The notes under the pieces are model-generated. The model did not search any database. It saw only the letters and a program-made list of their open reading frames with translations, and was not told the DNA's origin. A DNA stretch of 64,000 nt from Lacisediminihabitans profunda (lineage in GTDB: Bacteria > Actinomycetota > Actinomycetes > Actinomycetales > Microbacteriaceae), in NCBI RefSeq assembly GCF_008040105.1, contig NZ_VRMG01000001.1, forward strand, positions 1-64,000. Direction: 5' to 3'. The position numbers and the translations under genes were made by a program. Of this stretch, positions 3,669-11,684 are shown piece by piece (position 1 is the stretch's first letter; each line of letters starts with the position of its first letter).

Positions 3669-4667
3669 CTACCCGATTACCGCCAGCCGGTCGATTCTCG
3701 CGGCGACGTCCGCGGGGGCGATGAACTCACCCGTGCGCTCGACTTCGTGCACCATCTGTACCAGGAGGTCGTTGACCGGAGTGGCGACGTCGACCTCGGA
3801 GCCAGCCTCCACGACCGCGCCGTTGAGGTAGTCGATCTCGGTCGGCTGGTGCCGGCGGATGCTCTGCAGCGTCGATCCCGGGTTGGGCGTGCGACCCATC
3901 CTGGCCCGCATGAGCAGGGGGAGCGCCTGGGCCACCGATGCCGGCAGGCGCACGAGCAGGTGCAGCATCCGGTCGGAGAGCCCCTGGAGCTTCTCGAATT
4001 CGACGCCCCGGGCGATGCCTACCCGCACCGCCTCGCGCATGCTCTCGGTCATGACCGCCCGCAGCGCGCGGTCGGCGATGACGTCCTGCGCGCTCAGGCC
4101 GGTGATCGCGGGCAGCGCGTTGACCTGGTTCACGATGAGCTTCGTCCACTGCGCGCCCTCGAAGTTGCCGGTGGAGGTGACCGGCAGGACCTCGCCGAGA
4201 AGCCGGGACGCGTAGAGGGTGGGCAGCAGATCGCCGCCGAGGTAGGTGCTTCCCGCCGTGGTGACCTTCACCTGGCCGGGGGAGAGAAAGGAGGCGGCGA
4301 AGAGCGCCAGTCCGCCGACGATGTCGGATCGCGGGGCCGCGCGCTTGGCGACCACGATCGAGCGAAGCCCGTTTTGCACGACGACGACGGGGATGCCGAC
4401 GATCATCGCGGCGTTCGCCCGGAGCGCGGACTCCGCATCCTGCGCCTTAGCGGTGACGATCGCGAGGTCAGGGCTTCTGGTGAGCGCGGCGGCAGCCTGA
4501 ACTCGCGCGGTGTGCTCGCCCCAGGCCCCGCTGAGCTTCAGCCCGTTCGCCGCGATCGCCGCGAGGTGTTCGCCCCGGGCCGTGACGTCTACGGTGTGTC
4601 CCGCCCGGTCGAGCAGCGCGGCGATCGTGCCTCCCACGGCCCCCGCGCCGATGACCGCAACCCTCAT
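3669..4667 (-). CDS. 2-dehydropantoate 2-reductase-like protein (ApbA/PanE family)
   Basis: A 332-residue NADPH-dependent ketopantoate reductase family protein. The N-terminal GAGAVGGTIAALL is the Rossmann loop (residues 7-19). The C-terminal helical domain carries the expected Asn-rich segment (WTKLIVNQVNALPAITG) and the PNPGSTLQSIRRHQPTEIDYLNG block, where Ser and Glu bind the substrate. Several paralogues of this family exist in actinobacteria, so a role in pantothenate synthesis is likely but not certain. Its upstream region is filled by a long non-coding repeat and by a CTAGGAATCCTAG palindrome at 4669-4681, immediately before the start codon. Confidence 0.87.
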   Translation of the reverse strand: MRVAVIGAGAVGGTIAALLDRAGHTVDVTARGEHLAAIAANGLKLSGAWGEHTARVQAAAALTRSPDLAIVTAKAQDAESALRANAAMIVGIPVVVVQNGLRSIVVAKRAAPRSDIVGGLALFAASFLSPGQVKVTTAGSTYLGGDLLPTLYASRLLGEVLPVTSTGNFEGAQWTKLIVNQVNALPAITGLSAQDVIADRALRAVMTESMREAVRVGIARGVEFEKLQGLSDRMLHLLVRLPASVAQALPLLMRARMGRTPNPGSTLQSIRRHQPTEIDYLNGAVVEAGSEVDVATPVNDLLVQMVHEVERTGEFIAPADVAARIDRLAVIG

Positions 4668-4676
4668 GCTAGGAAT

Positions 4677-4702
4677 CCTAGTTGTACTGCCCAGGGACGT
4701 TG
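4677..4702 (-). repeat. Repeat tail motif upstream of the PanE-like gene
   Basis: On the minus strand this reads CAACGTCCCTGGG, three variable bases around an A, then TACAACTAGG: 24 of 26 bases match positions 3-28. It lies 13 bp outside the body of the inverted-array repeat and 9 bp upstream of the PanE-like start codon. A GGTTAACC palindrome (4702-4709) touches it. It may be the outer end of the repeat or part of a promoter region; the second full copy of the repeat has no clear version of it. Confidence 0.55.
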
Positions 4703-4715
4703 GTTAACCAGCTGA

Positions 4716-5144
4716 TGGGTGGGCGGGCTCCGCTCGCGGTTGTGCGGGGATGGTATTCGTGGAGCCAGGCGCGTTGTGCAGGATGGTGCCGCCGCCCACA
4801 GGTGCCCGCCCCGCAGACTCCAGTTGTGCAGGACGAGTTCAGCAGGACGGTTCGGGCGGATGGCGAGGACGATAGGTGCAGAACCGACGGGAGCGTCCTG
4901 CAGACCGGGACCGTTCGGGGCGCCACACCCCCCCCCTGCCGTGTCCTGCACAAGCTGTCCTGCACAACTGGAGTCTGCCGGGTAGGCAACCAAGCCTCCG
5001 GGGCCCGTCCTGCAGAACACGGCCCGACCGACGCGGGCGGCCACAACGAGAGGGCCGAAAAGGTCCAGCCTCCGGCATTGCGGCGACCGGCATGCAGCGG
5101 AGGGCGGCCGGGCGGTCGCGAAGGATCGAGGTCCACGACCACGA
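4716..5144 (-). repeat. Inverted-array repeat element, copy A
   Basis: This fills most of the 540-bp gap between the MFS gene and the PanE-like gene. Six copies of a 12-mer (GTTGTGCAGGAC or its complement GTCCTGCACAAC, up to two changes) start at 4773, 4823, 4837, 4943, 4957 and 5007. The spacings 50, 14, loop, 14, 50 are exactly symmetrical. Bases 4814-4834 and 4957-4977 are perfect 21-bp reverse complements, so the transcript could fold into a long hairpin with a loop of about 94 nt. The whole element aligns at roughly three-quarters identity to 11123-11632, read on the opposite strand. No convincing protein is encoded. Its orientation matches transcription of both flanking genes. Confidence 0.85.
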
Positions 5145-5207
5145 GATCGTCCACAACCTCGCTCACGTTCACCGACCGAAGCGAGTCGTCACGCCCAATC
5201 AACCAAC

Positions 5208-6641
5208 CTACTTCGCGCGGCCGACCGAGGGCGCGAGCACCCGACCGGACGGGAGAAGCAGGGCGACGAGGGCGGAGCCGAGCAGGGCGAAGGCGCCGAC
5301 CGTCACGGCGGGGATCGCCGCGTTGACATACCCGGTGGGGGTGAGCTGCCCGCCGGCGCCCGTGAACACCGCGGTGAGCACGGCGATGCCGAGGGCGACG
5401 CCGATCTCGCGCAGCGTGGAGTTGGTGCCGCTCGCCTTCGCCCGGTCGGCGTCGACGATGTTCGCGAGCACCGCCGTCGACGAGGGGGCGAAGACGAGCC
5501 CCATCCCCACGCCGGCGAAGAGGAACGGGCCGAGGAGGGCGACGTACTTCACGTCGGCGGTCATCACTCCGCCGAGCCAGAAGATGGCGATGGACTGCAG
5601 CAGCAGCCCCGCCACGATGAGGGTGCGGGTGCCCACTCGGGGCGCGACGAGGCCGGCGAGCGGGGCGATCACCATGGGGGCAAGGGTCCACGGCATGGTC
5701 ATGATCCCGGCCTGCAGCGGGGAGTGGCCCTGCACTATCTGCAGGAACTGGATGAGGATGAAGATCGAGCCGAAGATGCCGAAACTGAAGGCGATTCCCA
5801 CGATGTTGGCGATGCTGAAGCTGCGGTCGCGGAAGAGCCGGAGCGGCAGCAGGGGGCTGGGCGTGCGCGCCTCCCAGGCGAGGAAGGCGAGAACGAGCAC
5901 GACGCCGCCCGCGAGCGAGCCGACCACCTCGAGGCTGCCCCAGCCCGCGTCGTTTCCCCGGATGATGCCGTAGACGAGTCCGAGCACTCCCACCCCGACG
6001 AGAAGGAGTCCCACGACATCCGCGCGGAGCCTGGCACCGAAGCTGTTCGGCAGGGCGAGCAGTACCAGTGGAACGGAGACGATGCCGACGGGCACGTTGA
6101 TCCAGAAGATGGCCTGCCAGTTCCAGCCCTCAACGATCGCGCCGCCGATGAGCGGCCCGAGGGCTACACCGAGGCCGGAGATGCCGCCCCAGATTCCGAT
6201 CGCGAGCGGCCGGAGCCTGGCGCTCACCGAGCCGACGAGGAGGGTGAGGGAGAGCGGCATCAGGGCGGCTGCGCCGACGCCCTGGACGGCACGGGTGACG
6301 ATGAGCATCCAGGGCTCGGTGCTCAGCGCCGAGAGGGCGGAGCTCGCCGTGAAGATGGCGATGCCGATCACGAACAGGGTACGCCGGCCGTAGCGGTCGC
6401 CGAGGGCCACCGCCATGAGCATGAACGTGGCGAAGCTCAGTGTGTAGGCGTTGACGAACCACTGCAGCTCGGTGATGCCCGCGTCGAGGCTCGTTCGGAT
6501 CACGGGGAGCGCGCTCGTCATGACGAGGTTGTCGAGGGTCGCCATGAACATGGGCAGGGAGGCGGCGATGATCGCCAGCCAGACGGGAACTCGCCGGCGG
6601 ATGTTCGTGCCGGTCTGGACCGGGGCTTCGAGAGTGGTCAT
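5208..6641 (-). CDS. MFS drug exporter, DHA2 (14-TMS, EmrB/QacA) family
   Basis: A 477-residue inner-membrane proton antiporter. About 14 hydrophobic helices are visible. Motif D1 appears as TLDNLVMTSALPVI near residue 35, motif A as GDRYGRRTLF near 82, and the antiporter motif C as LGVALGPLIGG near 160. It diverges from a TetR gene 69 bp away, the usual arrangement for a substrate-induced efflux pump. The substrate is unknown. Confidence 0.92.
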   Translation of the reverse strand: MTTLEAPVQTGTNIRRRVPVWLAIIAASLPMFMATLDNLVMTSALPVIRTSLDAGITELQWFVNAYTLSFATFMLMAVALGDRYGRRTLFVIGIAIFTASSALSALSTEPWMLIVTRAVQGVGAAALMPLSLTLLVGSVSARLRPLAIGIWGGISGLGVALGPLIGGAIVEGWNWQAIFWINVPVGIVSVPLVLLALPNSFGARLRADVVGLLLVGVGVLGLVYGIIRGNDAGWGSLEVVGSLAGGVVLVLAFLAWEARTPSPLLPLRLFRDRSFSIANIVGIAFSFGIFGSIFILIQFLQIVQGHSPLQAGIMTMPWTLAPMVIAPLAGLVAPRVGTRTLIVAGLLLQSIAIFWLGGVMTADVKYVALLGPFLFAGVGMGLVFAPSSTAVLANIVDADRAKASGTNSTLREIGVALGIAVLTAVFTGAGGQLTPTGYVNAAIPAVTVGAFALLGSALVALLLPSGRVLAPSVGRAK

Positions 6642-10110: not shown

Positions 10111-11043
10111 ATGCTCCATCGCGCCGGCCTGAAGGCCTGTCTCGTTCTCGGGATGCTCACGGGGGCGGTCCTCACGGGGTGCACCACTGCCGCGCCGAAG
10201 CCCGTCGGCGGGTCCGAGTCGGCTCCTGCGCCATCCGTTTCGCCGTCCTCCGGAGTCGTCAGCAAGGTGCTCGTGATCGTCGTCGAGAACCACTCCCTCG
10301 ACCAGATGACGGCCCAGATGACGTACACGTTCGGGCTGGCCACGACGTTCGGCTACGCGACCCGCTACGCGGCGATCCGGCATCCCTCCCTGCCCAACTA
10401 CATCGCTCTCGTCGGTGGCCAGACTTACGGCATCACGGACGACGCCTCCCCGTCGGCCAACGAGATCCGCTCCGGAGCGTCGGTTTTCGGGCAGGCGATC
10501 GCCGCGGGAAAGACGGCGGCGTTGTTCGCCGAGGGGATGCCGGGCAACTGCGCCCTCGCGAACGGCGGCGACCACTATGCGGTCAAGCACAACCCGTGGG
10601 CCTATTTCGCCGCCGAACGGAGTCTCTGCGGCCGATACGACGTGCCGATCGGGGGCCTCGGCGCGACGATCGCCGCCGGCACTCTGCCCACCGTGGGAAT
10701 GGTCTTGCCCAACCTCTGCAACGATGCCCACGACTGTCCGCTCGGCACGGCCGACACCTGGATCAGGGGCTGGATGGAGAAGCTCTTCGCCGGCCCGGAC
10801 TGGGCCTCGGGTCACCTCGCGGTGCTGATCACCGCGGACGAGAACGACGATTCGCCGGGCAACACGGTGTTGACCGTGGTCGTGCACCCGAGCCAGAGGG
10901 CGCACGTGGTGACAACGCCCCTCAGCCACTACTCGGTGACCAGGCTTCTCGAGGACGTGGCGGGGGTGCCCCACCTCTTCGGCGCGGCCGCGGCGCCGTC
11001 CCTGTCGTCGGCATTCGCTCTCCCGATCGGAGCCTCGCCCTAG
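10111..11043 (+). CDS. Lipoprotein, phosphoesterase/acid phosphatase family
   Basis: A 310-residue secreted lipoprotein. The signal peptide ends in a lipobox LTGC at residues 20-23, followed by a Pro/Ser-rich linker. The catalytic domain resembles the phosphoesterase family that includes bacterial phospholipase C and AcpA-type acid phosphatases: VIVVENHSLDQM with a metal-binding Glu-Asn, YAAIRHPSLPNYIALVGG, then ITADENDDS and a late HYSVTRLLEDVAGVP. Four Cys may form disulphides. It is monocistronic, with GAGGG directly before the ATG; a slightly later start cannot be excluded. Confidence 0.83.
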   Translation: MLHRAGLKACLVLGMLTGAVLTGCTTAAPKPVGGSESAPAPSVSPSSGVVSKVLVIVVENHSLDQMTAQMTYTFGLATTFGYATRYAAIRHPSLPNYIALVGGQTYGITDDASPSANEIRSGASVFGQAIAAGKTAALFAEGMPGNCALANGGDHYAVKHNPWAYFAAERSLCGRYDVPIGGLGATIAAGTLPTVGMVLPNLCNDAHDCPLGTADTWIRGWMEKLFAGPDWASGHLAVLITADENDDSPGNTVLTVVVHPSQRAHVVTTPLSHYSVTRLLEDVAGVPHLFGAAAAPSLSSAFALPIGASP

Positions 11044-11122
11044 GTGTACTGTGCCACGCTGATGCTGCTTTGACTCCAAGCACAGTTACGGACGTTCGCG
11101 GCCGTCGGCGACGTTGCGGATG

Positions 11123-11632
11123 TCGTGGTCGTGGACCTCGACTCCGTCGCGGCCGCCCTCCGCCGCATGCGCATGACGGTCGCCGGTCGCCACGACGATG
11201 CTCGCCGGAGGCTGGACCGTCTCGGCCCTTCAGCCGTTAGCGTTGCCGCCCGCGTCGGTCGGGCCGTGTTCTGCAGGACGGACCCCGGAGGCGCGGATGC
11301 CTACCCCGCAGACTCTGGTTATGCAGGACAGCTTGTGCAGGACACAGCAGGGGTGGCGACCCGGGGGGTTCCGGTCTGCAGGGCGCTCCCGTCGGTTCTG
11401 CACCTCTCGTCCTCGTTATCCGCCCGAGGTGTCCTGCACAACCCGTCCTGCACAACTGGAGTCTGCGGGGTGGGCACCTGTGGACACCGGAGCCGTCCTG
11501 CACAACCCGTCCTGCGTAACTGGAGTCTGTGGGGCGGGCACCCGTGGGCGGCGGCGCCGTCCTGCACAACGCGCTTGGCTCCACGAATACCATCACCACA
11601 GGCCCCACCGCGATCGGAGCCCGCCCACCCCA
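11123..11632 (+). repeat. Inverted-array repeat element, copy B
   Basis: This fills most of the 690-bp gap between the lipoprotein and the P-type ATPase. Three left-facing 12-mers (GTTnTGCAGGAC-like) start at 11268, 11318 and 11332. Five right-facing ones (GTCCTGCACAAC-like) start at 11431, 11445, 11495, 11509 and 11559. All steps within an arm are exactly 14 or 50 bp. The arms fold back with a central loop of 87 nt. Bases 11309-11329 pair along their full length with 11509-11529 if three G-U pairs are allowed. The first 150 bp, which are shared with copy A, have a coding-like stretch (VVVDLDS) but no intact gene. Bases 11044-11122 show nothing else recognisable. Confidence 0.85.
11431..11558 (+). 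repeat. Two tandem 64-bp units within repeat copy B
   Basis: Bases 11431-11494 and 11495-11558 are direct repeats of exactly 64 bp, each holding two 12-mers 14 bp apart followed by GGAGTCTG and a G-rich stretch. A partial third unit starts at 11559. Copy A has only one such unit on this side, so the right arm of copy B has been expanded by one period. Confidence 0.88.
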
Positions 11633-11633
11633 C

Positions 11634-11684
11634 CTAGGGGCGATGGTTCCCGGGACGCCCGCTGTCAAGTCCTTAGTCCCCTAG
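11634..11684. promoter_or_regulatory. Palindromic region before the P-type ATPase
   Basis: CTAGGGG (11634-11640) is the reverse complement of CCCCTAG (11678-11684). Just inside the right arm is AAGTCCTTAGTCCCC (11668-11682). A similar AAGTCCTTGTC lies 72 bp upstream of the Hsp20 gene (17518-17528). This could be a binding site for a stress regulator or part of a promoter. The relation to DevR/OsdR-type boxes is only suggestive. Confidence 0.3.

Follow-up and report, generated by a model that had tools for sequence, protein, structure and literature searches.

A paired 12-mer array between genes

The window analysed here is a stretch of 64,000 nucleotides from the draft genome of Lacisediminihabitans profunda (4.02 Mb in 171 contigs), and it holds two copies, A and B, of one intergenic element, each with short sites set in facing arms and bordered by remnants of genes (Table 1). 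Copy A follows a phosphoesterase gene (open reading frame 10111-11043) whose TAG stop codon lies inside the left CTAG of the element. Copy B is truncated at its far end beside the stop codon of an MFS gene (5208-5210); at its other end, the start of a ketopantoate reductase gene (window 4667-4681) is only about 10 bp from the end of the transposon, so that the promoter or leader of that gene may lie in the element. Genomes, contigs and loci are designated by G, C and L numbers throughout.

Table 1. Features of the two element copies, in window coordinates.
Feature	Positions	Strand	Basis
Whole non-autonomous IS481-derived element, copy A	11040..11637	+	Comparison with better preserved copies
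Host gene 3'-end remnant, copy A	11116..11237	+	80% identity to L060 3804-3921
Left arm, copy A	11268..11343	-	Complement 12-mers at 11268, 11318, 11332
Centre separating the arms (87 nt), copy A	11344..11430	.	Site positions; weak match of covariance model R1
Right arm, copy A	11431..11570	+	12-mers at 11431, 11445, 11495, 11509, 11559
IS481-family transposase 3'-end remnant, copy A	11573..11630	+	87% DNA identity to G012
Copy B, inverse orientation	about 4678..5210	-	CTAG 4678-4681; intact right terminal repeat 4684-4705
IS481 transposase C-terminal codons, copy B	4681..4770	-	tblastn 62.5% over 32 aa, E 3.8e-5 (L009 1505-1416)
Arms of copy B	4773..5018	.	4773-, 4823-, 4837-, 4895+, 4943+, 4957+, 5007+
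Remnant of the same host gene end, copy B	5049..5148	-	L009 1883-1784, 80%

The array of copy A consists of eight sites for the 12-mer GTCCTGCACAAC or its complement, each with zero to two mismatches, at the very starts listed in an earlier note on this DNA. The other regularities claimed there hold as well: steps are exactly 50 and 14 bp in the left arm and 14, 50, 14 and 50 bp in the right arm, with a central step of 99 bp, and the arms face each other across 87 nt (counted between 11343 and 11431). The right arm holds a 64-bp tandem duplication with 84% identity. The second copy that had been announced is present too, with steps of 50, 14, 58, 48, 14 and 50 bp. Covariance model R1 matches copy A weakly at 11305-11455/11469 (E about 0.001) and copy B at 4810-4981 (E 7.8e-8). 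Sites with up to two mismatches number 34 in the window, against a mean of 4.46 and a largest value of 12 in 100 shuffles, and the exact 12-mer occurs 160 times in the draft genome, against once for the reversed pattern. Inverted arms with 14/50-bp steps, instead of direct repeats with regular unique spacers, agree with the earlier statement that this does not look like a CRISPR. Nor is the array a conserved coding gene, a possibility that had been raised, though a captured gene end adjoins it.

A nucleotide search with the element returned at least 141 matching pieces in the source genome. We fetched 40 loci, of which 38 aligned to the window element and two (L062 and L064) did not; the 36 aligned loci with at least three sites were used for step counts and arm order. 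Among their same-strand steps, 103 of 248 are exactly 14 bp and 64 of 248 exactly 50 bp, and a minus arm is strictly followed by a plus arm in 34 of these 36 loci. The 12-mer columns are the best kept part of the array in the aligned transposon copies (0.945 versus 0.871 for the rest). Copy numbers are lower bounds throughout, because only part of the candidates was scored (40 of 131 first-look candidates in the source genome, six per genome in relatives).

An IS481-derived carrier and its cargo

The array travels inside a larger unit. Copy A runs from the CTAG at 11040 to a CTAG ending at 11637, beyond the 11123-11632 that had been proposed for it, and its terminal repeats are largely lost, none being recognisable. 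In well preserved copies the left end reads CTAG, N and TGTACTGCCCAGG..GTTGGTT, and the right end is its inverse followed by CTAG. The terminal repeat occurs at 33 places in the source genome (up to three mismatches), and one or both repeats are recognisable in 28 of the 38 aligned copies: the left one in 20 copies, adjoined by CTAG in 15 of them, and the right one in 22, adjoined by CTAG in 19. Both ends carry CTAG in 8 of the 38 copies, and the NCTAGN hexamers, read by eye, are identical in two of these eight.

The ends also link this unit to the IS481 family. Its right end matches the ends of transposase genes, of which the one in G040 is intact and those in G012 and G031 have decayed, the matching region of G012 being the end of a decayed IS481-like gene, and its 5' end matches the start of the transposase gene, as read by eye. 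The G040 transposase with the same ends scores 336 bits for the IS481 family (cutoff 224), and the terminal repeat is the same as that of the intact element at G040 L022. Inside the copies, tblastn recovers the C-terminal codons of the transposase only. The search of the draft genome for an autonomous IS481 copy with such ends was negative: none of seven rve hits has the repeat nearby. Two of the seven, 46-47% identical to the G040 transposase, are situated near the starts of contigs, and parts of a transposase occur in L048, L053 and L168. The carrier is shown to be an IS481-family transposon, non-autonomous and adjoining CTAG sites, and the earlier suggestion of a MITE-like element proves right for this layer.

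This kind of carrier is already known. ISRe46, of the IS481 family, is described as targeting CTAG, the TAG of which is the stop codon of its transposase and of some host genes (PMC6794481). The carrier has the target and the transposase family in common with ISRe46/TnRErm46, and here too the target TAG serves as stop for the transposase and some neighbouring genes, as described for that system (PMC6794481). Unlike ISRe46/TnRErm46, the carrier has its transposase gene reduced to the ends, and its cargo is a host gene tail with a motif array. Short repeats inside a bacterial MITE have likewise been described for the MITE minisatellite of Porphyromonas gingivalis (PMC4596501). That minisatellite is not known to share the inverted order of two arms or the fixed spacing. 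At L039 of G040, an IS481-family copy apparently lies, to the eye, inside or beside the remains of another transposase gene.

The cargo can be traced within the same genome. The remnant at the left of the array in copy A matches the end of a 680-codon open frame at L060, a gene that we take from its C-terminus to be amidohydrolase-like. The stop codon of this frame lies in CTAG, and directly after it comes a free-standing array that is without recognisable transposon ends. Of 39 other loci, 27 have the tail of the host gene within the element, some of them as little as 31-55 bp of it; L054, one of 28 BLAST hits of the tail, lies outside an element and was left out. Sequence comparison shows the interior of the element to consist of the 3' end of this host gene and an array of paired sites resembling the one located after that gene elsewhere in the genome. 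In the simplest history, the "gene end plus array" would have been captured once between IS481 ends, at or near G000:C76:40.4 kb, and an IS481 transposase supplied in trans would then have multiplied the captured unit. The region L060 1875-4500 (G000:C76), with its free-standing array 3' of the amidohydrolase-like gene, is the likely source of the captured segment.

A wider family in Microbacteriaceae

The array is one version of a broader family of elements that lie between genes in Microbacteriaceae, with inverted GTTNTGCAGGA arms about 66 bp apart around variable loops and, often, extra tandem arms. Nucleotide and covariance-model searches of Microbacteriaceae, the route that the earlier note had proposed, found further elements in several genera. 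An exact GTDB-wide scan (one genome per species) for pairs of inverted 10-mers separated by 30-60 bp yielded 63 stretches, 41 of them Microbacteriaceae-type by title (including Micrococcales and Actinomycetota bins that group there). The match length is 75-77 nt in 37 of 43 matches in Microbacteriaceae-type stretches versus 2 of the 22 other stretches, where lengths are scattered and five matches measure 78 nt. Within the family, 10 of 398 genomes are positive for the exact pattern. When 15 genomes were searched with a covariance model, all ten of these were recovered and, from five further genomes of the same genera, only G109; G012, G054, G164 and G188 gave no element (in each case among the matches listed).

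The layout is clearest in G229, a single-contig genome of another genus, with 83 occurrences of GTTNTGCAGGA against none of the reversed pattern. Fifteen clusters hold 73 of the 83 sites, all pointing inwards and never minus-then-plus. The inner spacing is 66-67 bp in nine of the 15 clusters, about one or two units larger in five and 97 bp in one, and the outer steps measure 18-22 bp in 40 of 43 cases (the ten single sites left out). The 14/50-bp rule is therefore peculiar to the source genome, one species' version of a general layout: the exact spacing that the earlier note had emphasised is kept in source-genome loci and gives way to other steps in G229, and what persists in many loci of several genera is inverted paired spacing. 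Seven of the 15 clusters of G229 fall within 202 kb (G229:C1:808-1009 kb) of its 2.96-Mb genome (post hoc p about 0.002). In Microbacterium mitrae, one intergenic gap (L104/L215) holds four complete elements in tandem and another (L217) holds three, spaced about 150-240 bp apart.

Our literature searches of open-access papers found no description of the array family, which is in line with the earlier claim of novelty and leaves the family apparently unreported.

Arms and loops of these elements have had different fates. Across 11 ortholog pairs, 215 of 220 core positions are identical, compared with 356 of 465 in the loops, under an aligner so generous that shuffled loops give 0.69; leaving out two nearly identical pairs (L123/L198 and L144/L096), the figures are 176 of 180 and 266 of 374. 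The contrast is inflated because the pairs were found through their arms. Between elements of one genome, mean loop similarity is 0.68-0.74 versus the shuffled 0.69, with single pairs up to 0.90, and recent copying is therefore not general. Arms that stay fixed while loops drift nearly to random similarity suggest that something reads the arms. Presence/absence differences occur at three syntenic sites, without clean boundaries, since the intergenic DNA has diverged so far that MAFFT could not fix the insertion boundaries.

What may read the arms

The reading that we consider rather probable has two layers: an IS481-derived mini-transposon carrying a captured array, and an array that belongs to a family of protein sites. 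A putative sequence-specific protein would occupy the arms as double-stranded DNA, their spacing and orientation would set the geometry of the complex, and the elements would persist as a REPIN-like population and not as an RNA or a plain terminator. A protein-binding array was among the possibilities raised in the earlier note, and it is now the best reading of the array; the arms are constant between orthologs, and the support is indirect.

The same arms could instead form a hairpin in RNA or in single-stranded DNA, acting as terminator, mRNA stabiliser or transposition intermediate, a reading that we hold to be unlikely. All 40 elements folded give strong hairpins (-34 to -63 kcal/mol). Across genera, positions outside the core show 73 both-side changes versus 35.7 in shuffles, a value that none of 500 shuffles reaches (alignment A1, 38 of 40 unique elements, leaving out L094 as an overlapping array and L144 as a near-duplicate of L096), and in three of five sets (g43, G284 and G229) matching exceeds the control, only at offset -1, the base adjoining the core; this covariation and the matching core-adjacent base could suggest a hairpin. 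But each genus has its own longer consensus. Against the hairpin, arm-to-arm covariation is not significant within any of the five sets: when arms were swapped between loci of one set, pairing did not drop significantly (permutation p 0.12, 0.79, 0.83, 0.79 and 0.93; 64 of the 69 elements of 100-106 nt, with G126 left out at n=5). The value of 0.12 belongs to set g43, which pools G309 and G346, the remaining four sets being single genomes. Mismatches on the transcribed strand do not favour RNA either, with 16 G-U against 9 A-C in 17 of the 20 codirectional elements (three longer ones left out), and a single hairpin leaves the extra tandem arms unexplained. In four genomes, with genes called by our own gene finder, 45 of 47 elements are extragenic, 20 between codirectional, 17 between convergent and 8 between divergent genes; the convergent cases speak for a hairpin and the divergent ones against it, and the two elements inside genes may reflect miscalled genes. 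Rfam gave no match above the gathering score for six loci. The structured RNA of the earlier note is not supported by the Rfam search, the covariation within sets or the mismatch counts; cross-genus covariation speaks for it. Constant arms with drifting loops, together with the lack of within-genome co-variation between arms, lead us to prefer protein-binding sites on double-stranded DNA to a structured RNA. These results suggest that every arm is a separate double-stranded site of one motif, constrained in orientation and spacing.

The resemblance to REPINs, whose layout of inverted doublets is tied to Y1 transposases (PMC3116915), raises the alternative of a genuine REPIN population that a tyrosine transposase mobilises. 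Two inverted arms at a preferred spacing, a variable, drifting spacer, an extragenic position and some tandem clusters all agree with what is described for REPINs (PMC3116915), and the presence/absence differences at the three syntenic sites can be counted on the same side. However, the arms here are shorter than those of REPINs and REPs and have tandem extra copies, compensatory change within genomes is not significant, and no Y1 transposase was found: the Y1/RAYT domain (PF01797) is present in none of 21 genomes searched, ten pattern-positive ones included (G440 was not among the 21), while the control search was positive in 5 of 14 reference genomes. Since loop similarity within genomes also speaks against general recent copying, we regard a RAYT-driven population as very improbable. 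REPs without a dedicated transposase have a precedent in the CGTC REPs, as these are described (PMC3116915; PMC3733652), and a term search of the text of the latter paper returned no mention of Actinobacteria.

Returning to protein sites on double-stranded DNA, we offer more tentatively, as a possibility short of even chances, a fuller proposal: a RAYT-independent REPIN-like population in several genera, bound by a putative dedicated protein (perhaps AbiEi-like/DUF559), that was hijacked and multiplied in one species by an IS481 derivative. The persistence of small repeat populations in bacterial chromosomes has so far been best explained by the REPIN/RAYT pair, and a similar layout found without the Y1 enzyme would be an independent case. 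The window also illustrates how capture by a transposon can spread an array of host motifs. With the genomes listed above as positive or negative, the factor suspected of reading the arms can be looked for.

One candidate comes from conserved neighbours, compared at loci that were chosen for holding elements. Three genera share a locus at which the element is upstream of dapA and adjoins a gene whose product has a DUF559 domain, which we take to be a Vsr-like nuclease domain. This protein, whose start is AbiEi-like and whose gene lies between thyX and dapA, could be the partner, as an analogue of RAYT. An element stands between the gene and dapA in eight genomes of three genera, a second one stands on the other side of the gene in L109, L127, L115, L209 and L266 (23.6 bits in L266) and weakly in L096, and the proteins score above the DUF559 cutoff in four of four cases, with AbiEi models matching one of three. 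On the other hand, homologues occur at dapA in the model-negative G012 and G164 and the pattern-negative G005, the gene is split into two parts in the element-rich G284, and G000 has only a partial match to it. Moreover, no element lies at dapA in G440, G000 or G109, and the idea was formed after the loci had been seen. A switch of motif, by which G005, without GTTNTGCAGGA pairs, would have a different paired motif beside its gene copy, was rejected: in 400 kb around that copy no rival motif was found, the suspected pair and every inverted 9-mer pair occurring at most once. We therefore rate this partner as quite improbable, and the gene flanked by elements in three genera as a weak lead. L130 and L137 were considered as further flanked genes and dropped, the genes in between being unrelated to the DUF559 gene; in both, weak model matches lie about 1.25 kb from the elements. 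The flanked DUF559 gene itself occupies L109 5138-6301, L127 3166-4329, L115 1233-2438, L209 2503-3620 and L266 216-1447, and is broken in L209.
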